Positions 2,438 through 38,814 of a stretch of DNA of 45,634 nucleotides are shown here, piece after piece. A program made the position numbers and the translations under genes. The notes under the pieces are model-generated. The model saw only the letters and a list, made by a program, of their open reading frames with translations, was not told where the DNA came from and searched no databases. Origin of the DNA: a virus; IMG/VR virus record IMGVR_UViG_3300005466_000042, positions 1-45,634 of that record, one strand, 5' to 3'. The stretch's first letter is position 1. Each line of letters starts with the position of its first letter.

Positions 2438-4835
2438 GGTGAGGTCGGTCGACGGAAAAGAGGTCGTCTGGGAGCCCCAGCCGAGGCAAGCGGTCGCGCT
2501 TTCGTGCCCGGCGCTGGAGCTTTGCTACGGCGGGACCAAGGGCGGCGGAAAAACGGACTTTCTGGTGATGGCCTGCATCGAGCAAATCACGCTTTGCCAC
2601 CAGCGGTTCGTCGAAACGAAGCGGAAGCAGCGCGGCCGGTACATCATCTTCCGAAAGAACGTCAAGAACCTCGCCGACATCATCCAGCGCGCCGAAGAGA
2701 TGTATCCGGTCATCGACCCGGGCGCGAAGTGGAACGTGATGGAGAAACGCTGGACGTTCACCAGCGGCTACAAGGTCGACTTCGCCCATCTCGACGGGCC
2801 GAACGACCACCTTGGCTACAACGGGCAGGAACTTTGCGTAGCCACCGGCACGCCGATTCTTCTTGGCGACGGGACGTATCGTCGCATCGAAGAAATCGCC
2901 GTCGGCGATACGGTCATGACACTGGAGGGGCCGAAGCGCGTGCGCGCGACTCACCACAACATGGTCAAGCCGTGCGTTCGCGCTGACGTCTTCGACGGAC
3001 AGACGATCACAAGCCAGATTCACCCCTTGCAACACCCTGTTTTGACGCCCACCGGCTGGGTCTCCTATGCGTCCCTAGCAGGTGGCCAAACCGGTACTGA
3101 AGAGTCCCGTACGAGCAACCCAGCAGCGCCGCTGCCTGACGGATTGTTCTTCCCTGTAGTGCTGCACTCACCTGCGCGTCGGTCAGTGGAATCTCGGTCT
3201 GATCAAGGACCCACTTCCAGCCATGGGCACGACAGATTGCCCGGGCGACATTCGGAGACATCGGGAGTTGGCCTAGCGTCACCTTCGGGTCGGCTGCCGC
3301 CTTCCGGACAAGTTCGATCGATTTCGGGTTGTACTGAATCGACGTCTCCCGCTTGTGGTGACGAATGTGATCCGCGCGCGTCGCGAATAGACCAAGGTTC
3401 TCGTCCCGATTGTCTGCCTTCTTCTCGTTCAGGTGATGAACCGTCTCCTGCCCGGACAGGTATCTGCCTAGGCGCCGTTCCATCACGAGGCGATGTTGAA
3501 GGACCATGCCTATTTTCGACGCCCCAGGATGCGTTGGACAGTACTCTTCGATATAGCCATCTGGCCGCAGTCTCGTATGTCCACCCCTATACGACGCAAA
3601 AGCGTCCTGTGTCCGAGGCCAATGTCTACGGGGCATGTTCGTTGACTCCTGTCGGTGAGATGAGCGTTTGTGATCTAACGGTAGAAGACGCGAATCACTA
3701 TATCAGTGACGCACGTTTGATCAACAAGAATACCGGCGTCGGGATTGACCAGGTCGAGGAAATCGCCGAGGAGGTTTACCTGTTCCTCGCGATGCAGCTG
3801 CGTTCGAAAAACGCGGAGATGCGGAAGCTGCTTTTTATGCGCGTGACAGCGAATCCTGGCGGGCTTCACGCGGCCTGGGTCAAGCGGTACTTCGTCGAAG
3901 GGTGCCGCCCGCACAACACGATCATCAAGACGCAGGTGACCCTACGAAACGGGAAGAAGCGCGACGTGACCAAGGCGTTCGTGCCCGCCACGCTCTACGA
4001 CAACAAGTATCTCTGCGAGGACGGCGCTTACGAGGCAACGTTGCTCAAGCTGCCCGAGCACTTGCGCCGGATGTACCTCGAAGGCGACTGGGACGTGGTC
4101 ATCGGCGCGTACTTTTCGCACGTCTGGAACCGCTCGGTGCACGTCATCCCGTCATTCTCGATACCGGGGCACTGGCCGATCAAGTTCGGCCTCGACTGGG
4201 GCACCACGGCGCCCGCGTGCACGCTCTGGGGCGCCCAGGACGGAGACGGGAACGTCTACATCATCGACGAGCTTTACGGTCCTGGCATCACCGGCCGGAC
4301 GTGGGGCGAGAAGATGCTGAAGAAGCTGGAGCTTCAGAAGTGGTCCCACGAGCGCAAATGGGGGGTCAAGGACATGTACGGGCTCATCGACCGCGAAGCC
4401 ATGGCGGCGCGCGGGTCGGACACCGGTGCAGGCGGCTCGGCGACTCCCGCGGCTGGCATTCAGTGGTGCGGGTGGCGCCTGTTCCCGGCGAACAAGGACC
4501 GCGCAGCGGGAAACGAACAGTGGCTTGAGCGCCTGCTGCTGAAACCGAACGGGAAACCCAGCGTGTTCATCTTCGGCGACCGGTGCCCGAACTTGGTCCG
4601 CACGATTCCGATGCTGATGTCCGACCCGCACAACCCGGAAGACGTCGATTCGAGCGGCGACGACCATGCATTCGATACTGGCAAGTATCTGCTGCTCGAC
4701 TGGCCCGTGAAGGGCTCACGGCCGAAGGACAAGACCGGCGACCAGGACGTCGAACGCTGGCTGGCGATGGCGAAACATCGCAAAGACATGGAGAATGCGC
4801 CAGGCGATACCATCACCACTGGCTACGGAGACTGA
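2385..4835 (+). CDS. terL: terminase large subunit precursor with intein
   Basis: This is the packaging motor ATPase and headful/cos nuclease that acts at the portal. Residues 49-57 form the Walker A loop (GGTKGGGKT). The segment GVGIDQVEE after the intein is the Walker B region, with DQ where DE is usual. The nuclease half starts at FGLDWG (catalytic Asp about residue 604) and has a late acidic motif DDHAFD (Asp about 764). Residues 151-449 are an intein inserted between Walker A and B; removing them leaves about 517 residues, normal for the family. The start is uncertain: ATG 2385 overlaps the 48-residue gene by 53 bases and lacks a good Shine-Dalgarno, while GTG 2439 lies one base after that gene's stop. 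Confidence 0.95.
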   Translation: MGWRTRSSERRASIPFDEVRSVDGKEVVWEPQPRQAVALSCPALELCYGGTKGGGKTDFLVMACIEQITLCHQRFVETKRKQRGRYIIFRKNVKNLADIIQRAEEMYPVIDPGAKWNVMEKRWTFTSGYKVDFAHLDGPNDHLGYNGQELCVATGTPILLGDGTYRRIEEIAVGDTVMTLEGPKRVRATHHNMVKPCVRADVFDGQTITSQIHPLQHPVLTPTGWVSYASLAGGQTGTEESRTSNPAAPLPDGLFFPVVLHSPARRSVESRSDQGPTSSHGHDRLPGRHSETSGVGLASPSGRLPPSGQVRSISGCTESTSPACGDECDPRASRIDQGSRPDCLPSSRSGDEPSPARTGICLGAVPSRGDVEGPCLFSTPQDALDSTLRYSHLAAVSYVHPYTTQKRPVSEANVYGACSLTPVGEMSVCDLTVEDANHYISDARLINKNTGVGIDQVEEIAEEVYLFLAMQLRSKNAEMRKLLFMRVTANPGGLHAAWVKRYFVEGCRPHNTIIKTQVTLRNGKKRDVTKAFVPATLYDNKYLCEDGAYEATLLKLPEHLRRMYLEGDWDVVIGAYFSHVWNRSVHVIPSFSIPGHWPIKFGLDWGTTAPACTLWGAQDGDGNVYIIDELYGPGITGRTWGEKMLKKLELQKWSHERKWGVKDMYGLIDREAMAARGSDTGAGGSATPAAGIQWCGWRLFPANKDRAAGNEQWLERLLLKPNGKPSVFIFGDRCPNLVRTIPMLMSDPHNPEDVDSSGDDHAFDTGKYLLLDWPVKGSRPKDKTGDQDVERWLAMAKHRKDMENAPGDTITTGYGD
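3007..3636 (-). CDS. HNH homing endonuclease nested antisense inside the TerL intein
   Basis: A 209-residue product with a full HNH signature: GYIEEY at 27-32, QHRLVMERRLGRYL at 47-60, the catalytic VHHLN at 66-70, DNRDENL at 75-81 and HIRHH at 90-94. This order matches the HNH_3-type phage endonucleases. A C-terminal helix-turn-helix (RTIRQAAALLGC and following) fits the DNA-recognition module of such enzymes. The ATG has an AGGAG Shine-Dalgarno 9 bases upstream. The gene lies opposite the terminase and fills the intein between its splicing blocks, so it would cut intein-less terL alleles to spread the element (inferred from the family). HNH codon position 3 falls on position 2 of the TerL frame. 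Confidence 0.9.
   Translation of the reverse strand: MPRRHWPRTQDAFASYRGGHTRLRPDGYIEEYCPTHPGASKIGMVLQHRLVMERRLGRYLSGQETVHHLNEKKADNRDENLGLFATRADHIRHHKRETSIQYNPKSIELVRKAAADPKVTLGQLPMSPNVARAICRAHGWKWVLDQTEIPLTDAQVSAALQGRTIRQAAALLGCSYGTLQYRFGHLLGTHRRPSRWASKQGVARGESGL
3697..3724 (-). promoter_or_regulatory. candidate promoter for the antisense HNH gene
   Basis: On the minus strand, TTGATC (3724-3719) and TATAGT (3702-3697) are separated by 16 bases. The implied start is near 3690, about 55 bases upstream of the HNH ATG. The sequence lies inside the part of the intein that encodes the C-terminal splicing block, so it is constrained by the protein as well. Confidence 0.5.
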
Positions 4836-12306: not shown

Positions 12307-12501
12307 ATGCACAAAGACAGCAAGAAGCGCGGGCACGTCGTCGAAGTCGTCTCGGTCGGCGCTCTGGAGCGGGACTTCCCCGCTGCGACCATCGCCGAAT
12401 CCGTGGCGATGTACCTGGACGCCAAGGCGAGCGACGGCCTGGCCCTCGTGTCGAATGGCTCGGCCCCGGCCGGCCTGATGTTCGTTTTCAAGGCGGTCTG
12501 A
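12307..12501 (+). CDS. small hypothetical protein
   Basis: A 64-residue product 9 bases after the previous stop. Like its neighbour it ends in a strand with an FVFKAV tail. It is basic at the N-terminus. Perhaps a paralogue of the upstream gene; function unknown. Confidence 0.6.
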   Translation: MHKDSKKRGHVVEVVSVGALERDFPAATIAESVAMYLDAKASDGLALVSNGSAPAGLMFVFKAV

Positions 12502-12519
12502 CCGCGAAAGGGGCCGCAG

Positions 12520-12786
12520 ATGAGCACCAGACCGACAGACTTCGTCAACGGCGAAGTCCTCACGGCCTGTTCCATCTGCGGTCGCCGCCGCCTCTTCCCG
12601 TCGCAGGTCGTTCGCTCGCCTGACCGCCTGTTCCGCTGCATGGACTGCAACGAGAAGACGGTCCTGGAGTTCAACCAGGAGATTGCAGCGGCCAGGAGAC
12701 GAAGACCCGAGCCGGATACCGCCATCGGCGTAGGTTCGCAGTTCAGCGCCTCGACACCAACCGACGATGATATGGGGTTCCCGTGA
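12520..12786 (+). CDS. small zinc-ribbon-like protein
   Basis: An 88-residue product with two Cys-x2-Cys pairs (CSIC at about 18-21 and CMDC at about 40-43), a classic spacing for a zinc ribbon, followed by a disordered acidic tail. AAAGGGG precedes the ATG. The stop overlaps the next GTG (GTGA). A structural or regulatory role cannot be decided. Confidence 0.6.
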   Translation: MSTRPTDFVNGEVLTACSICGRRRLFPSQVVRSPDRLFRCMDCNEKTVLEFNQEIAAARRRRPEPDTAIGVGSQFSASTPTDDDMGFP

Positions 12787-14213
12787 GCGTCAGATACGAA
12801 ACCGTCACCGCGATGAGAGCAGCCGCCACGAGCGGATTCTCTACGGTCACCGCGCAGACGGCCTTTGTCGTGTCGCTCAACGACTTCTTCAAGTTCGTGC
12901 GCGGGTCAGCGGCAACCCCGGTGGCGAACATCATCGTCCCATCGTCGGACGGCCTTGGGGCGTGGCACCGCATGGGAATTCCTCCCCAGGTGGGCGCGGG
13001 CGGGCTCCTGGTCTACGACGCGAATGGGAACGCATCGGCGTACACGCCTGGCGCGACGACGGGGCAGGTGTTCACGTCGAACGGGGCTGGCGTGCCAGGG
13101 ACGTGGCAGCCGATCGGATCAACGAAGTACCTCGGAAACGTCGGGCAGCGCACCTACGTCCCGTCGAGCGCAGGCGGCACGCTGCTGAACATGATGTCGC
13201 TGTCCATGCACAAGGTCACGGACGACGTGGCGGCCGTCCAATTTGCTATTCCCAACTGGCAGGGAACGAACGAGGCAGGCCCCGGCGCCGCGTCCGTCGT
13301 CAAGGTATCGATCCAGTTCCCAGACGGCACGCTCGTTCCAATCTTGGTCTCTGGCTCTACGTCAGTCTCGATTCCAGATGGTGGCATGATCTGGACCGAT
13401 CCATTCCCGTGGACCATCGCCCGCAATACGTGGTTCGGAATTCGAATCTACCGGACGAACGCGGTCGGATGCCCGTACACGGCCAACGTCCAGGACCACG
13501 CACTTGGCGAGCGCATCGAGTACAACGCGGGCGTTGACAAGACGCTGAGCGGGACGATCAGTGCCACGGAAACGGCGCCCTGGGCCGGCCCATGCGGCAT
13601 CCGCGGCCTGATGACTCGGCCATCGGTCACCCTGATCGGAGACTCTCGCGTCGCAGGCGAAGGAGACACCCCCAACGGAACCGGGGCCATCGGCGAATAC
13701 GCGCGCAGCCTGCAAGCAGCAGGGCTCGCTTGGCAGAACCTCGCCATCGGCGGCACCGGGGCAAACGGGTTTCTGTCTGGCTCGCACACGCACCGAATCG
13801 CCCTGGCGTCTCTCTGCTCGCACATGATCACGGAGTACGGAATCAACGACCTCCTTCTGGGCGATGCCCAGATGCGCGCTGACCTGAATTCCATCAACGC
13901 ACTTCTTCCCGCAGCACAAAAGAAGTACGTGGGAACGATGGCTCCGCGCACGACGTCCAGCGACGGGTGGGCAACCGTCGCGAATCAGACGGTCACCGCC
14001 CAGGAGTCGACGCTGCTCGCTAACAACAACTGGCGGAAGACAATTCCCACAGGGTTCATCGGCTGCTTCGACGTCAACGCCATCCTGCAAAGCGGGATAA
14101 CTGGCAAGTGGCTCGCCCCCGGCTACACCGCCGACGGCCTCCATGGCAGCGCCACGGCGTACGCGGCAATCCTCAACAGCGGCATCATCACCGCGGCGAA
14201 CTTCACGCTATGA
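12783..14213 (+). CDS. structural protein with SGNH-hydrolase/esterase domain
   Basis: A 476-residue product starting at GTG in a GTGA overlap. Residues 1-110 resemble the N-terminal domain of tail-fibre-type proteins. From about 280 an SGNH (GDSL) hydrolase is readable: block I GDSR with catalytic Ser288, block II GGTGANG near 325, block III YGIND with Asn355, and block V DGLH with Asp451 and His454. Such enzymes deacylate or deacetylate glycans. In a virion this would modify host surface polysaccharide during adsorption. It lies upstream of the neck and tailspike genes. Confidence 0.85.
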   Translation: MSVRYETVTAMRAAATSGFSTVTAQTAFVVSLNDFFKFVRGSAATPVANIIVPSSDGLGAWHRMGIPPQVGAGGLLVYDANGNASAYTPGATTGQVFTSNGAGVPGTWQPIGSTKYLGNVGQRTYVPSSAGGTLLNMMSLSMHKVTDDVAAVQFAIPNWQGTNEAGPGAASVVKVSIQFPDGTLVPILVSGSTSVSIPDGGMIWTDPFPWTIARNTWFGIRIYRTNAVGCPYTANVQDHALGERIEYNAGVDKTLSGTISATETAPWAGPCGIRGLMTRPSVTLIGDSRVAGEGDTPNGTGAIGEYARSLQAAGLAWQNLAIGGTGANGFLSGSHTHRIALASLCSHMITEYGINDLLLGDAQMRADLNSINALLPAAQKKYVGTMAPRTTSSDGWATVANQTVTAQESTLLANNNWRKTIPTGFIGCFDVNAILQSGITGKWLAPGYTADGLHGSATAYAAILNSGIITAANFTL

Positions 14214-14926
14214 CCATCGGCGCCACGACGAGTTTCGAGGAAAGCCGAGATGATCTGATCGGAGAGGCGCTCGAAAATCTTGGGGCAGTGGAACCCGCCG
14301 CGGTCCGCGACGCCACCAACTCCAACCTATTCACCATGGGCGAGCGCGCCCTCAACCGACTGGTCAAGCAAATCGGCGGCTCCACCGGCGTCAGCCTGTG
14401 GCACTTCCAGCGACGCACGTACACCACCGTCGCCGGCACCGACAACTTTGTCGCCGCATCCGACGTACTCAGCATAGACGGCCCGATTCGCTACACGCGC
14501 GCGGGCGCCACGTCGTCGCTCCAGGGCCTGCCGATGTCGCGGCACAACTACATGGAACTCGCCGACCGGACCACGCCGGGTCCTTCGACCACGTACTATG
14601 TCGAGCAGCTGCTGACGACAACGACCGTCTACCTGTGGCCGGTGCCCGACGCGAGCGGCGACACCATCGAGTACACCGTCTGCGTGCGCGGGGCTGATTT
14701 CACGTCGGGAAGCGACACGCCGGACTTCTGGGCCGAATGGACGACGTGCCTCGTGTACGGCCTGACCGCGGAGCTTGCGCCGAAGCTGTCGCAGACCGCG
14801 CTCATGGACCGATACAAGCCGCTGTTCGAGGCGGAACTGCGCAAACTGGCCGACGGTGACAACGAGCGCGGCCCGATGACTCTCGTGCCTTACGGGTCCT
14901 ACGGTTCAAGCGGGGGCGCCGGATGA
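14210..14926 (+). CDS. head-tail connector (P22 gp4-like neck protein)
   Basis: ATG in an ATGA overlap. The 238-residue product has an N-terminal helical part (DLIGEALENLGAV), a beta-rich centre, and a C-terminal helical bundle (LTAELAPKLSQTALMDRYKPLFEAELRK). This order is typical of the gp4/gp11-type neck proteins that attach under the portal and close the head in short-tailed phages. Position immediately before the tailspike and gp10-like genes agrees. Confidence 0.7.
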   Translation: MTIGATTSFEESRDDLIGEALENLGAVEPAAVRDATNSNLFTMGERALNRLVKQIGGSTGVSLWHFQRRTYTTVAGTDNFVAASDVLSIDGPIRYTRAGATSSLQGLPMSRHNYMELADRTTPGPSTTYYVEQLLTTTTVYLWPVPDASGDTIEYTVCVRGADFTSGSDTPDFWAEWTTCLVYGLTAELAPKLSQTALMDRYKPLFEAELRKLADGDNERGPMTLVPYGSYGSSGGAG

Positions 14927-14930
14927 TGAC

Positions 14931-14959
14931 TTGCACGTCACGCCACATGATGCTACATC
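14931..14959 (+). promoter_or_regulatory. candidate promoter placing a start at the HTH-tailspike ATG
   Basis: TTGCAC at 14931-14936 and TACATC at 14954-14959 with a 17-base spacer. The expected start is at or next to the ATG at 14966, so this transcript would be leaderless. Confidence 0.35.
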
Positions 14960-14965
14960 TTAGGG

Positions 14966-16708
14966 ATGACAAAACCATCTCGTTCGTCCAAGAAGCCAAT
15001 CGCACTAACCCAGGCCCAGGCGTACGCCGTGGCCGCCGCCGCGCAGGTCGACCCGCGCACGGTCAAGCGCGTGGCAGCCGGGCTGCCGACGCGGCAAATG
15101 GTCACCGACCGAGTCATGTCCGCGCTCAAGTCGCTGGGTATTCTGCTGGCGCTTCTCGTCGTCGGCTGCGGAATCCAGAAGCCTGGCGCATCGCCGGAGG
15201 AGGCAGCTAACGTGGCGTCTACTGTCTCGCTGGTTCAAATGCTCGCGGCCGGCATGACCACGTCCGCGGGGGCGGCCATCGCATCGGGGAGGGTGACATT
15301 CTTTTTGCCAGGCACATTGACCCCCGTGTCCGTCTACGCTGACGGCGCCGCCGCGACGCCCATCGCTCCGCCGCTGGTCCTGACTGCGGGCGGGACGGGA
15401 ATCGCGTACACGAAAGTCCCGACGCGGATGATCGTGAAGGACTCGACTTCCACGACCACATACTTCGACGGGCTGGTCAACATCGAACGGGCCGAACAGC
15501 AGTACATCCAGAGCACTTCGGTGAACGGCGGCACTGAAACGACGTTGCAGACCCTGCTTGACGCCATCGGGACGTCGCTGGGCGGCACGGCCGGCCTGTG
15601 GAAGTTCAAGGCGGCTGCGTCCGGAACAGAGCGGAACGTCAAGGACGTCATCAACGACCTAGGTATCAGTGTCAAGAGCTTCGGCGCGACCGGAGCCGGT
15701 GCCGTTGACGACCGAGCGCAGATTCAAGCGACCATCGACTACGTCGAGTCGATCGGCGGCGGCGCCGTGTTCGTGCCGCCCGGCATTTACCTCGTCGCTT
15801 CCGCGCTGACCCTTCCTGCAAGCGGGAAGGTGGAAATTCACGGCGCGGCGATGGCCGTGACGTTCATCAAGAATACGGGCGGCGCGACCGGCGTGTTCAC
15901 CACCGCCGACCTGACCACGTCCGTCTTCAAAGACCTTACGATCACCCATTCGTCGTCGTCCACAGGGACGGCAGTGGTAGCCGCTGGCGCGGGTTCCCTG
16001 CTGTTCGATCACGTCACCATCCAAGGGCACCTGGGAGTCGCGTCGGCAACAGGCGGCACCGTCTACTCGATCAATTCTGCATTCACCGCCACCGGCGCAG
16101 GGACGGCGGTATTGGCCTCCGGGCTCGTATCGTCCGCATCGTCGTACATCACGAGCACCGGTACCGCGGCGTCCATCACGGGCGCTGGGCGTCTCGCCGG
16201 CGACTTCTTCTTCGCCGGGACCGGCGTCGCGGTCGACGTGGGGGCCAACGCGACTCTGCTCGCCTCCGCGTGTCTGGCATCGGGCGGAACCGCTGGGCTT
16301 CGCCTGGCGACGACAACGGCCGGGGTGCTGACCTCTGGTTGCAACTGGGGAAGTGGCGGCGTGGTCGATAACCGCACGGGCAGCCCCGTGGCCTACACGT
16401 TCGCGGCCAACGGCAACTTCACTCCGCTCCCGCTTCAGACGGAGTCCATTCGGGTCATCGGAACGGCAGGCGGAATCACGATCACAATCAACGCCGCGGC
16501 GACTACGGGCTTCGGACGCAAGTTCTCGATCATGCAGATCAACAACACGGGCGGCGCGTGCACGTTCGTCTACAACGCCCAGTACAAGCTTCAGGGTGCG
16601 GCTGCGGCCAACCCCGCGACCGGGAACATGATCATCTCGACCTTCGAGTACGACCCGATTTCTGCGGTCTACAGGGAGACGGCGCGCTCGGCGTCGATGG
16701 CAATCTGA
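14966..16708 (+). CDS. tailspike with pectate-lyase fold, fused to an HTH and lipobox-like N-terminus
   Basis: The 580-residue frame has four parts. Residues 10-58 look like a small helix-turn-helix domain (AQVDPRTVKRVAAGL and flanks). Residues 51-69 resemble a lipoprotein signal (MSALKSLGILLALLVVGC). From about 83 follows a tail-fibre N-domain with the FFLPGTLTPVSVYADGAA motif. From about 235 comes the pectate-lyase beta-helix (VKSFGATGAGAVDDRAQIQ), known from phage depolymerase tailspikes. Three in-frame starts exist: ATG 14966, ATG 15116, and GTG 15212, which has the only strong Shine-Dalgarno (GGAGGAGG). The virion protein may start at 15212 (498 residues). The role is receptor polysaccharide binding or cleavage. 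Confidence 0.8.
   Translation: MTKPSRSSKKPIALTQAQAYAVAAAAQVDPRTVKRVAAGLPTRQMVTDRVMSALKSLGILLALLVVGCGIQKPGASPEEAANVASTVSLVQMLAAGMTTSAGAAIASGRVTFFLPGTLTPVSVYADGAAATPIAPPLVLTAGGTGIAYTKVPTRMIVKDSTSTTTYFDGLVNIERAEQQYIQSTSVNGGTETTLQTLLDAIGTSLGGTAGLWKFKAAASGTERNVKDVINDLGISVKSFGATGAGAVDDRAQIQATIDYVESIGGGAVFVPPGIYLVASALTLPASGKVEIHGAAMAVTFIKNTGGATGVFTTADLTTSVFKDLTITHSSSSTGTAVVAAGAGSLLFDHVTIQGHLGVASATGGTVYSINSAFTATGAGTAVLASGLVSSASSYITSTGTAASITGAGRLAGDFFFAGTGVAVDVGANATLLASACLASGGTAGLRLATTTAGVLTSGCNWGSGGVVDNRTGSPVAYTFAANGNFTPLPLQTESIRVIGTAGGITITINAAATTGFGRKFSIMQINNTGGACTFVYNAQYKLQGAAAANPATGNMIISTFEYDPISAVYRETARSASMAI
15195..15203 (+). promoter_or_regulatory. strong internal ribosome binding site
   Basis: CGGAGGAGG lies 8 bases before an in-frame GTG at 15212, exactly where the tail-fibre type domain begins. 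It argues that the tailspike is translated from GTG 15212 and not (only) from the distal starts. Confidence 0.6.
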
Positions 16709-18133
16709 GTGCTGGCAGCCGTCGACATCAGCGCGGGAGTCGTCTCAACGGCCGACGACGTCAGTTCCGCCCCCTCGCGCGTGGTCAACTTCATGCCCGA
16801 CGTCGCCGGGGTGCAGCGCCCGCGCCCGGGCCTCGTCGCATATGCCACCACCGGCCTTGGCGCCTCGCCGCTCATCGCGCTCTACCGCTGGAAGACGTGG
16901 CTCGTCGGCGTCACGGCTGACCGAAAAATCTGGGCGCTCACGGACGGCCTGCCGACCGTCTGGACCGCGCTCTCCGACGCTACGGCAGCCACGCAACTCG
17001 ACAACGTCCTGACGCCTGTATTCGCAGAGTCCCCGTCGTTCCTGTACATCGCGGGTGGCGGCCTGATTCAGAAATGGACCGGCGTCGGACTGACCGCGCG
17101 GCTGGGCGGCTCGTCACCGCCCACCAGCTTCATAATCAACATCGGGCAGCGCCTTGTCGCCATCGACCTGACGAATCCCGGTCGATTCCTGTACTCCGAC
17201 CTCGGCGAGGGAAACGACGCCACCTGGGGCTCGCTGAACTTCCAGACGGCCGAGTCTCGCCCTGACGGCCTGGTCGCCCTGTACGAGAACACCGCAGAGG
17301 CGGCCCTGTTCGGCACGTCGACCTTGGAAATCTATGGCCTCTCGACCGACCCGCTCATCCCGTACCAGCGGATCAACACGCTGAACATCGGCCTTCTCGC
17401 GGCGTACTCGGTCGTCCGCGTCGATTCGTTCTACTTCCTGCTCGACGACAAGCGCCGCATCATCAAGACCGACGGGCGGTCCTACGAGAACGCCAGCGAG
17501 GCGATACAGCGCGACTTGCAGCGCCTGATGACCGTGTCCGATTGCTACGGGTACCGCGAGCGCACCGACCGGAACGACTGCCTCGTCTTCGTCTTCCCGA
17601 CGGAGCGGCGCGCCTGGGCGATGGACATGGGGTCGAAGAAGTGGGCAGAGCGCGGCATCTACGACGGCGTCTCGGTGAACGGCACCTGGGACGTCGCCGC
17701 CGCTGCATACTGGGATGCGCTCAACCTGAACGTCTGCGCGCGGACGGCCACGCTCGGCCTGTCGTACGTCGACACGGACACGCGGACTGACTACGGCTCG
17801 ACGCTGCTCTCCGAACTGGTCACCGGCTGGCAGGACTTCGGGACGGCCAACCGGAAGCGCAGCGCGCGGCTGCGGGTCGTCATGCGCCGCGGGACGGCCA
17901 CGCTTGGCGCAACGGGCGGTCAGCTGGAAATCGCAACCCAGAACGACGGCCTCGGGTGGTCTGGCTTCAAGCAAATCGACGTCGGGCAGCCGTCGGACCT
18001 ACAGCAATCGAAGGACCTGCGCGTAGGCGGCGTGTTTCGGCGTCGTCGCTACTGGGTGCGCTACTCGGGCAGCGACGAGCTTTCGATCGCCGGGCTGTAC
18101 GATGACGTCGAAGACCTGGAGGCAACCGGATGA
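16709..18133 (+). CDS. P22 gp10-like packaged DNA stabilisation/tail protein
   Basis: A 474-residue product starting at GTG directly after the previous TGA. The central segment (TSTLEIYGLSTDPLIPYQRI, then YFLLDDKRRI, then GYRERTDRNDCLVFVFP) fits the P22 gp10 family (packaged DNA stabilisation protein), a beta-rich protein of the tail tube that plugs the head after packaging. Length is close to P22 gp10 (472). It follows the gp4-like gene, as expected for a P22-type neck cluster. Confidence 0.85.
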   Translation: MLAAVDISAGVVSTADDVSSAPSRVVNFMPDVAGVQRPRPGLVAYATTGLGASPLIALYRWKTWLVGVTADRKIWALTDGLPTVWTALSDATAATQLDNVLTPVFAESPSFLYIAGGGLIQKWTGVGLTARLGGSSPPTSFIINIGQRLVAIDLTNPGRFLYSDLGEGNDATWGSLNFQTAESRPDGLVALYENTAEAALFGTSTLEIYGLSTDPLIPYQRINTLNIGLLAAYSVVRVDSFYFLLDDKRRIIKTDGRSYENASEAIQRDLQRLMTVSDCYGYRERTDRNDCLVFVFPTERRAWAMDMGSKKWAERGIYDGVSVNGTWDVAAAAYWDALNLNVCARTATLGLSYVDTDTRTDYGSTLLSELVTGWQDFGTANRKRSARLRVVMRRGTATLGATGGQLEIATQNDGLGWSGFKQIDVGQPSDLQQSKDLRVGGVFRRRRYWVRYSGSDELSIAGLYDDVEDLEATG

Positions 18134-18336
18134 GGCCCGTCACCGAGAACATGTCCCAGAAAGAGCTTATCGCGGTCGTGCGCGAGCTGGCGACGCGGGC
18201 CGTTCCGCTCGACACCACGGGCGCCCCGGCTGCATCGGCGTCGTTCAAGGGCCAACTAGCCATCGACGAGGGCGTTGCGGCATACATCGCGGTCAGCGTC
18301 GGCCTTGGTGCGGCGGACTGGGTGTTGATCTCGTGA
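18130..18336 (+). CDS. small structural-region protein
   Basis: A 68-residue product in an ATGA overlap. Helical N-terminus, then a beta-hairpin ending in ADWVLIS, similar to the short adaptor-like domains that end in an aromatic strand in phage tail genes. Function unknown. Confidence 0.6.
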   Translation: MRPVTENMSQKELIAVVRELATRAVPLDTTGAPAASASFKGQLAIDEGVAAYIAVSVGLGAADWVLIS

Positions 18337-18366
18337 TGGTGTTACGATTCTGGAAAGGCGGGTGAA

Positions 18367-19107
18367 ATGGCGAATTCATTCTATTCGGTCATCAACGGAA
18401 CCGCGACGGCGGACCAAAACCCGACTGACCCGTTTGCGACGATAGGACGCGCCGGGACGAAGCTCGTCCAGACCGTAAAGGACCCGGCCGGTGCGCTAAA
18501 GTCGCCCGGCTACGACACTGCCGCCGAGGGCGCCAAGGAGGCCCAGGCGTACCTTCAGCAGCTCTCCCAGCTCGCCTGGGACCGTCAGATGCAGGGGCTG
18601 CAAGGCGCGCTCGGGTCGTTCGGGGCCTATGACGCCCTGTCGAATCAGCTCATCCCGCGCCACGGCGGGCCCGCGCCCGGGCAGGGCGGCGGAATGGCAG
18701 GCGGCATGCCTGGTGGCGCCGGCGCCGGCGCCGGTGGTCCGCCTCCGGGCGCCCCTCCCGCGCTGCCGCCACCGAGCGGGGCTCCCACGACCGGATACCG
18801 TCCACCGGTGGGCGCCACGCGCACACCTTTGACCCCGCCAGGTGCGCCCCCGGCCCTCCCTCCCCCTGGCACCCCGACGACCGGGTATGCACCGCCGACC
18901 GGCGCTACCCGTACGCCGCTCAACCCGCCCCCGGCTTTGCCGCCTCCCCCGTCGTATGCCCCGCCGGCATTGCCGCCTCCGGGGTCGCCCGTCGCGCTGC
19001 CTCCTCCGGGCGGAGGATCGTACGCGCCTCCTGCGCTGCCCCCGCCCGGGACCGACATCTTGCAGCAGCTGGCCTACATGGCCCGCAGCGGACAGGGGCA
19101 CTTCTGA
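18367..19107 (+). CDS. proline-rich virion-region protein
   Basis: A 246-residue product. Residues 1-95 are helical and Gln/Ala-rich. From about 97 on it is a Gly/Met then Pro-rich disordered tail with repeated motifs (PTTGY-PP-GATRTPL twice, PPALPPPG several times). AAAGGCGGG precedes the ATG. It starts a set of four large genes in the usual place of the ejection/internal proteins of P22-like phages; likely a virion component, role inferred from position. Confidence 0.6.
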   Translation: MANSFYSVINGTATADQNPTDPFATIGRAGTKLVQTVKDPAGALKSPGYDTAAEGAKEAQAYLQQLSQLAWDRQMQGLQGALGSFGAYDALSNQLIPRHGGPAPGQGGGMAGGMPGGAGAGAGGPPPGAPPALPPPSGAPTTGYRPPVGATRTPLTPPGAPPALPPPGTPTTGYAPPTGATRTPLNPPPALPPPPSYAPPALPPPGSPVALPPPGGGSYAPPALPPPGTDILQQLAYMARSGQGHF

Positions 19108-36753: not shown

Positions 36754-36980
36754 CGCGCCACTCGCTCTCTCGCGGCGTTCCGCAGGGTGATACGGCCAAG
36801 CTTGCTGTCCAGCTTTGTGATCCAGTCTCGCGGCACCGCCCGGCGTTCGCCCGACTCCAGCTCGATGCCGATGGGCTGGCTGCCCACGTTGACCACGCCG
36901 GGGACGTTCTCCTGGCCAAGGACGACGCGGCAGCGGGCGCCGCGGTCGGGGCCGCTCCGGATGACGTACTCGCCGCTCAT
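36750..36980 (-). CDS. small hypothetical protein
   Basis: A 76-residue product from ATG 36980, overlapping the Sak4-like gene. Beta-rich (YVIRSGPDRGARCRVVLGQENVPGVVNVG), with an Arg-rich end. It has the look of a small beta-barrel. Function unknown. Confidence 0.5.
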   Translation of the reverse strand: MSGEYVIRSGPDRGARCRVVLGQENVPGVVNVGSQPIGIELESGERRAVPRDWITKLDSKLGRITLRNAARERVAR

Positions 36981-37954
36981 GCCGCCCTCTTTGCAAGCTC
37001 CGCCCGGATGGCCTCGCGTTGCTCCGTTGTCCACTTCAGTCGCTTGCCGTTTGCGGCGTCCTTCGCGTCGGCGTACGTCGGCGCGATGGCGATGGCGTCG
37101 AGCAGGTCTTGCAACGCCTCGGGCGTCGGGGCGTCCGTGGTCGGATCGGCAGCAGGCGGCGCGGCCTTCTGCGCAGGCACACCTCCGGCCTCCCATCGCG
37201 CGATCTTCTCGCCGATATCTTCGGTGAGTTGCGACCCTGGCTTGATGAAGTCACGGAAGTAGCTCGGCACGCGCACCCATCCCTTCTCGCCCTCTCTCTC
37301 GGGGACTTGCGGGCACCCGTCGGAGCCGGGATTCAACAGCAGGCGCAACGGGAATTCGTAGATGAACTCGGACCCTGTAATCGGCATGCTGCCGAGCTTC
37401 TCTGGGTCGTGGCCCTTTTCGAGCTTCAGCTTTTCCTTGGTACGGAAACATCCGATGATGCTGACACGCGCTTGCAGGAGCGTGTTGATCATCTGCCGCC
37501 GCGCCATCTTCGGCTTCTTCCAGGCCAGCATTTGCACGCGCTCTGCCTTCTTGTCGTCGCCCCCACTGAGCCGCTCTAATTCCTCTTCGAACTGTTCCAG
37601 CATGCCGCCGAGGCTTTCATGCTCATGGGAGAACGAGTCGACGATAATGACGCTCGCTCCTGCCTTCATGCACACCTGGCACGCTTCCAGGTAGCGCAGC
37701 GACGAGAACGGTGCGCCGAATGACAGGTGCTCAAAGTCAAACGTCTCTGGCGGCGCGGCCTTGCCGTTGGCCGGCGCGTAGACCAGGGCGCGGTCAGCCT
37801 CCGTGTCAATCACGGCAATCTTTCCGCCCGTGACGCGGACGATGCCGGTGGCCAGGCGAAGCGCACTTTTGGTCTTGCCACCACCCGATCCGCCACCCAG
37901 CGCGATCCAGGATGGAGCGGCAGAACGGACGGCCTTCTTCAGCTCGAAGGCCAT
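36977..37954 (-). CDS. Sak4-like RecA-fold ATPase (recombination)
   Basis: A 325-residue product. Walker A GGSGGGKTKS at 21-30, Walker B-like VIIVDS at 102-107, and a central domain with ARRQMINTLLQARVSIIGCFRTKEKLKLE. This is the AAA_24/Sak4 family: RecA-core proteins of phages that anneal or assist recombination of single-stranded DNA. The C-terminal tail is Ala/Pro-rich with a short helix. It lies next to the PD-(D/E)XK exonuclease, a typical pairing. Confidence 0.8.
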   Translation of the reverse strand: MAFELKKAVRSAAPSWIALGGGSGGGKTKSALRLATGIVRVTGGKIAVIDTEADRALVYAPANGKAAPPETFDFEHLSFGAPFSSLRYLEACQVCMKAGASVIIVDSFSHEHESLGGMLEQFEEELERLSGGDDKKAERVQMLAWKKPKMARRQMINTLLQARVSIIGCFRTKEKLKLEKGHDPEKLGSMPITGSEFIYEFPLRLLLNPGSDGCPQVPEREGEKGWVRVPSYFRDFIKPGSQLTEDIGEKIARWEAGGVPAQKAAPPAADPTTDAPTPEALQDLLDAIAIAPTYADAKDAANGKRLKWTTEQREAIRAELAKRAA

Positions 37955-37956
37955 GA

Positions 37957-38814
37957 CTAGAAATCCACTCCGGGATTCGTTCCCATATCCGTGTCCATCT
38001 CCTCAGCCAGCTTGAACGCCGACACCTTCACCGGGTTGCCACCCGCGTAGCCAGGGAACACGCCAGTCCGCAGGCACTCTCCCCAAAGCCTCTTGGCGCG
38101 TCGCCAGCGACGTTCTCCGTACTCTTTGGCTTCTCCACCAAGCGGACGAACGTTCACGTCGTACGGCGCGGACGTTTCGCAGAAGGCCAGCTTGAACTCG
38201 ACCCGTCCGGCCGCGTCTGGCCAGTTCGTTTCGATACCCTCGACATACGCGGCGACTTGCGTTGCATAGTCGTACGTGACCACCACGCGGTCGGTAGCGC
38301 CGTCGCTGGCCACGTCAACAGACTTCAGGTCGATGATGACAGCCGACGCCGCGTCAGGCGCGATGATCAAGTGATCGAGCTTCCCGCGGCATGGGACGCC
38401 GTCGGATTCCCAATCAACCTTGACTTGCGACTGACCTGACAGTTCGATGCCCTGCGCTTTCAGAGCCGTCTTCCATGCAGAAATGATCTTCTCGTACCCG
38501 GCGAGCTTCGCAGCCATGATCGGAATCTTCCCGTCCGCCGCAACTGCATCGCGGAACTCCTGCGCGGCCTTCGTCTTCCAATCCGTGGCCGGCTGGCCAT
38601 CTGCCTTGACAACGCGGCACACGACAATCTCCGGGCCGACGCCCAGAAGGAGGCGATCCATAATCCGCCCGCGCTCCTTCGCGTCGCTGTCCTCGCTTTC
38701 AGCTGCCCCACCCAAGCGGTGATATTCCCACGCGGCTTTCGCGCTGCGCTCTAGTAGTATTTTTGCGCACGTCGGCGATAGCCGCGGAACCTCGGCGCCC
38801 CACGGCGTGGTCAT
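37957..38814 (-). CDS. PD-(D/E)XK exonuclease (RecE/Cas4-like)
   Basis: A 285-residue product. Catalytic core visible: CRGKLDHLI (Asp147), AVIIDLKSV (Asp162 and Lys164), and YDYATQVAAYV (183-191), as in DUF3799/RecE-type phage exonucleases. The upstream gene order and the adjacent Sak4-like ATPase suggest a two-component recombination module that resects double-strand ends and anneals them. Located three bases upstream of the ATPase start. Confidence 0.85.
   Translation of the reverse strand: MTTPWGAEVPRLSPTCAKILLERSAKAAWEYHRLGGAAESEDSDAKERGRIMDRLLLGVGPEIVVCRVVKADGQPATDWKTKAAQEFRDAVAADGKIPIMAAKLAGYEKIISAWKTALKAQGIELSGQSQVKVDWESDGVPCRGKLDHLIIAPDAASAVIIDLKSVDVASDGATDRVVVTYDYATQVAAYVEGIETNWPDAAGRVEFKLAFCETSAPYDVNVRPLGGEAKEYGERRWRRAKRLWGECLRTGVFPGYAGGNPVKVSAFKLAEEMDTDMGTNPGVDF

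Follow-up and report, generated by a model that had tools for sequence, protein, structure and literature searches.

Organization of the locus

The window, meaning the whole 45,634-nt stretch of DNA analyzed here, is a 45.6-kb phage record carrying terminase, portal, and major-head-type genes. The features around its tailspike gene are listed in Table 1. The adaptor stop codon (TGA, positions 14924 to 14926) forms the left edge of a 285-bp insert. Within the insert begins a frame that runs from ATG 14966 to position 16708 (580 codons) and passes without a stop through a helix-turn-helix (HTH) domain, a lipobox-like stretch, and the tailspike, as an earlier note on this DNA had described. The nearest upstream in-frame stop is TGA 14948. 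Counted along the fused frame, the HTH pattern falls in codons 1 to 58, the lipoprotein-signal-like stretch in codons 51 to 68, and GTG 15212 is codon 83. The note's observation that a perfect GGAGGAGG and GTG 15212 sit at the tailspike boundary holds as well: both sites are present, the former 8 nt upstream of the latter, and homology to other tailspikes begins at the GTG. As expected of pectate-lyase-type phage tailspikes, a beta-helix/pectate-lyase domain follows a conserved N-terminal domain (Pfam PF12708, 6.2e-11; PHROG tail spike, 4e-10).

Table 1. Features at the adaptor/tailspike junction of the window
Feature	Coordinates	Strand	Basis or remark
Adaptor gene	14210..14926	+	SU10-type head-tail adaptor, "gp4-like"; Pfam SU10_adaptor, E = 1.9e-12
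Insert, 285 bp, at adaptor/tailspike junction	14927..15211	+	Comparison with related contigs
Overlapping +2-frame ORF	14926..15210	+	Begins TGATG; TAA one base 5' of GTG 15212
HTH-lipobox frame, 82 codons, open into tailspike	14966..15211	+	In frame with tailspike
Predicted LacI-type HTH domain, residues 14-58	15005..15139	+	Profile match, homologues, AF2 helices
Lipoprotein-signal-like stretch, MSALKSLGILLALLVVGC	15116..15169	+	ATG 15116 to lipobox cysteine
Shine-Dalgarno site for GTG 15212, GGAGGAGG	15196..15203	+	-12.1 kcal/mol
Tailspike proper, 498 codons, GTG start, pectate-lyase-type beta-helix	15212..16708	+	PF12708, PHROG, homology
Head closure Hc3/packaged-DNA stabilization protein gene	16709..18133	+	PHROG 578, E = 9.2e-25

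Related phages and the tailspike start

Relatives were collected through the downstream head-closure gene, which yielded 11 insert-free contigs (L005 to L015); some of these are close to each other, so that they represent fewer than eleven independent cases. In 10/11, the stop codon of the adaptor gene either adjoins the tailspike start or overlaps it. The one exception, L009, carries an HNH gene in this slot (3900 to 4484, minus strand). Neither an HTH nor a lipobox precedes the tailspike in any of the insert-free relatives (11/11). Tailspike homology to all 11 begins exactly at GTG 15212, with N termini that read M[AS]ATVSLIQML or close variants and line up with residue 83 of the fused frame in the window. 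Because homology starts at this codon and the adaptor lies directly upstream in ten of the relatives, the ancestral virion tailspike is the 498-residue product. Translation of the tailspike almost certainly still begins at an internal start of its own, GTG 15212. The earlier note had named homologous phages with a stop before the fiber domain and no HTH as the finding that would count against it, and such phages are what we found. The extension thus did not belong to the virion protein ancestrally; it is nonetheless real in one subgroup. Nor is the frame an assembly slip, since a second phage with only 51% identity over the tailspike part keeps the same fused frame.

In relatives (L007 to L015), the codons for the adaptor C terminus, SSGGGAG, double as the tailspike Shine-Dalgarno site.

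Distribution and age of the insert

The insert occurs in the window, in L001 (identical to the window), and in L004/L002, and is absent from L005 to L015. L004/L002 is a distinct phage that shares the fused frame and the 285-bp insert, and its tailspike part is the one 51% identical to that of the window. A DNA search of related records retrieved no further copy. Sequence comparison establishes that the insert exists, that relatives have empty sites, where the tailspike starts, and that the frame is open. Between the window and L004, identity is 96% over the HTH-lipobox segment, 88% over the adaptor, and 74% over tailspike codons 1 to 35, and it falls further in the distal tailspike, with a near-identical block extending from the adaptor stop to about tailspike codon 13. 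Synonymous divergence (dS) is 0.11 in the insert versus 0.42 in the adaptor. We infer that exchange between lineages gave the insert a more recent shared ancestry than its flanks have. Because the two phages differ in the tailspike body but hardly in the insert and tailspike codons 1 to 13, the insert may mark a site of tailspike exchange.

The possibility that the 3' end of the insert (GGAGGAGGCAGCTAAC) is left over from a former adaptor 3' end was considered; the match is limited to the ribosome site and stop, and the idea was kept only as a lead. Integrase matches in three relatives suggest that the family is temperate; the window and its nearest relative gave no such match.

Evidence for selection on the HTH frame

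An 82-codon stretch of like composition is free of stops in about 22 to 26% of simulations, so the openness of the frame means little alone. Two further properties are informative. First, GC content by codon position in the HTH frame is 0.68/0.52/0.77, which is coding-like. Second, 7/10 of the changes between the window and L004 in this frame are silent, and at least 7 silent changes arise in 0.3% of random placements (P = 0.003), a test that compares the two distinct insert-bearing phages over ten changes. The corresponding dN/dS is 0.16 overall (0.07 in the HTH half and 0.38 in the lipobox half). Taken together, purifying selection and codon-position GC indicate that the HTH frame is more than a chance opening, and the HTH part is probably translated. 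As both copies are already fused, the constraint is most simply placed on the fused frame, although recombination with unfused donors is possible.

The overlapping +2-frame ORF shows no such constraint (3 silent versus 13 replacement changes) and is probably noncoding. It starts at the position of the old tailspike ATG, and the Shine-Dalgarno energy of a nearby in-frame ATG (14923) is -8.6 kcal/mol. This ORF may relay ribosomes from the adaptor to the tailspike.

Start codons, lipobox, and promoter

Three nested starts had been proposed for the fused frame, and they fared differently. GTG 15212 has the strongest Shine-Dalgarno interaction among six window starts tested, compared with -3.0 kcal/mol at ATG 14966 and -2.7 kcal/mol (12-nt spacing) at ATG 15116. 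The constraint on its frame makes ATG 14966 a plausible start. No Shine-Dalgarno site precedes ATG 15116.

The stretch that begins at ATG 15116 fits the pattern of a bacterial lipoprotein, with a charged n-region, a hydrophobic core, and a lipobox-like LVVGC at 15155 to 15169 (pattern [LVI][ASTVI][GAS]C). By the criteria applied here, the window contains one lipoprotein-type signal where shuffles predict 0.13, so that it is unlikely to reflect mere composition. It differs from a bacterial lipoprotein in that the putative signal-peptide start is not preceded by a ribosome site.

The promoter proposed for ATG 14966 did not hold up. A sigma-70-type scan of positions 12500 to 18600 found none, including in 14931 to 14966, and by reading, TTGCAC and TACATC each match the consensus at only 3/6 bases; a promoter of another class is possible. 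A loose pattern modeled on this very site, TTGCAC-17-TACAT-7-ATG, gave 6 matches versus 0.94 expected; because the other five matches carry three mismatches, we did not take it as a promoter class.

Identity of the HTH domain

A four-sequence profile searched against the PDB retrieved LacI-type HTHs, the best being CcpA residues 6 to 52 (E = 0.007), over which the predicted three-helix pattern aligns. A low-confidence AlphaFold (AF2) model (pLDDT 66) places the helices at residues 16 to 26, 30 to 37, and 43 to 67. Pfam and NCBIfam searches gave no model above cutoff for the HTH, and Foldseek gave no match with the low-confidence model. The domain is therefore described here as LacI-like and not as a proven LacI member. 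Unlike LacI-type regulators, it has no effector-binding domain, and a hydrophobic stretch leads from it into the tailspike.

The earlier suggestion to search for the HTH as a separate gene was productive. Free-standing homologues with their own stops were found in two unrelated phages, one of 83 aa (L033; 49 to 51% identical) and one of 68 aa (L021/L034; 40 to 43% identical), with identities taken over the HTH. Where L033 has AQVDPKTVRRVLAGLPTR, the window has AQVDPRTVKRVAAGLPTR. In contrast to the window HTH, these small proteins end at their own stops, are encoded outside the tail region, and each adjoin an excisionase-like HTH gene (by reading of neighboring ORFs). With the window HTH sequence as the query, tblastn found no homologue in phage or plasmid records, and a single-sequence PDB search likewise found none. 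No HTH homologue was confirmed in GTDB contigs, where a DNA pattern was also without a match. Weak profile matches in two records (G004 and G012) lay in 17-codon, stop-containing frames, and we discarded them.

Insertions on the other side of the tailspike

Two relatives carry lipoprotein genes after the tailspike; HNH and lipoprotein labels in this neighborhood come from reading of the sequences rather than from a family search. In L005 (4330 to 5229, minus strand), a 299-aa ORF joins an HNH-HTH region, stop-free, to a lipoprotein (containing WRHVAMLLVAIVGLPLAGCDAATPEEAAR) whose ATG is immediately preceded by a ribosome site inside the upstream frame. In L006 (5573 to 5854, minus strand), a standalone 93-aa lipoprotein (beginning MNTKKLALVLLFFSAVGC) lies just after the tailspike with a TTGACA-like sequence upstream, and is a candidate moron. 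Together with the HNH gene of L009, these genes indicate that both sides of the tailspike take up insertions. Like the window frame, the L005 ORF belongs to this phage family and neighborhood and has a C-terminal HTH that continues in frame into a lipoprotein signal; it differs in strand, in the side of the tailspike, and in having an endonuclease as the upstream partner. This second HTH-lipoprotein junction makes an accidental in-frame fusion plausible in the region.

Interpretation of the fused frame

The reading that we consider reasonably likely is that a moron-like HTH insert became fused in frame by accident, that the tailspike is made from GTG 15212, and that the 580-residue form is a minor second product. 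Under this model, a 285-bp moron-like insert (a LacI-type HTH plus a lipobox-like tail) would have entered the adaptor/tailspike junction in one phage subgroup, a small group of soil phages. Having no stop of its own, it would have come to lie in frame with the tailspike by chance. The virion tailspike would then be made from GTG 15212 by means of the GGAGGAGG in the last bases of the insert, and ribosomes initiating at ATG 14966 would give a 580-residue HTH-hydrophobic-tailspike protein, with the HTH kept by selection. We infer both that this protein would be the lesser of the two products and that the HTH would have a regulatory role; that the long product is made at some level is probable. 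An accidental fusion was one of two possibilities raised in the earlier note, and it is the one to which the comparisons point: relatives without the HTH and lipobox start their tailspikes at the equivalent of GTG 15212, and HTH homologues stand alone.

As in phage morons, the insertion looks recent, lies between late genes that are adjacent in most relatives, is present or absent among relatives, and holds a regulator-like coding sequence. However, a self-contained moron should carry its own promoter, terminator, and stop, none of which was found here (sigma-70-type scan for the promoter), and the frame enters a virion gene. The insert could also be a broken gene fragment whose signature of selection predates the fusion, and the small number of insert-bearing phages and changes behind the constraint test weighs on the model as well.

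Rather unlikely, in our estimate, is an inert insertion, in which a regulator fragment displaced the tailspike start, the frame stayed open by chance, and the 498-residue tailspike is the sole product. The frequency of open frames in simulations, the lack of a promoter in the scan, and the weak ribosome site at ATG 14966 all agree with this explanation, but it does not account for the excess of silent changes and low dN/dS in a frame that is fused in both phages, nor for the coding-like GC.

The other possibility raised earlier was a dedicated alternate-start system, in which a regulated choice gives a long functional membrane or regulatory protein and a short virion protein. We consider this improbable. 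Of its elements, GTG 15212 is strong and ATG 14966 plausible; ATG 15116 has no ribosome site, and the scan found no promoter. Retention of the fused frame in two phages with divergent tailspikes, the amino acid constraint on the HTH frame, and the scarcity of lipobox-like signals in shuffles are consistent with it; however, the hydrophobic stretch is short for a membrane span, the lipobox half is less constrained than the HTH half, and eleven relatives manage without the segment. A real second protein, with the HTH-lipobox-tailspike chain acting as a membrane-tethered or virion-linked regulator and a nested start supplying the virion tailspike, is very improbable. Shigella VirF is described as having two in-frame starts from which a longer and a shorter protein arise, the short form from a leaderless mRNA (PMC5101355). 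The window gene resembles VirF, as described there, in its nested in-frame starts and possible long and short proteins, but differs in the strong ribosome site of the short form and in that no promoter was found for the long start. Among the papers covered by a literature search, there was no direct precedent for an HTH-tailspike fusion.

It is scarcely credible that the HTH-lipobox segment serves the tailspike as an N-terminal virion domain, a reading favored by the shared stop-free frame, since all eleven relatives have the tailspike N terminus at the 15212 equivalent and lack the segment. We give equally little credence to a sequencing or assembly artifact (a missed stop or frameshift): a +2-frame TAA at 15208 lies at the boundary, where one indel would part the genes, but L001 is identical and a different phage, L004, has the same frame and insert length.

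On the accidental-fusion reading, a receptor-binding gene would keep its own virion start despite in-frame fusion to an inserted regulator coding sequence. Annotation software would probably call a single 580-residue "tailspike" with the wrong N terminus. A long form, if produced, would join a regulator and a virion protein in an unusual way.

Other features of the window

An Rfam search of the region found no family. Just 5' of the adaptor gene (12783 to 14213, plus strand) lies a gene for a GDSL-type esterase-like protein (PHROG 8480, E = 7.5e-37) with 98% DNA identity between the window and L004; its flanks diverge more. Elsewhere, positions 36977 to 38814 (minus strand) encode an AAA_24-type ATPase and DUF3799 exonuclease pair; DUF3799 was not found in four other relatives searched and is present in G001 too.
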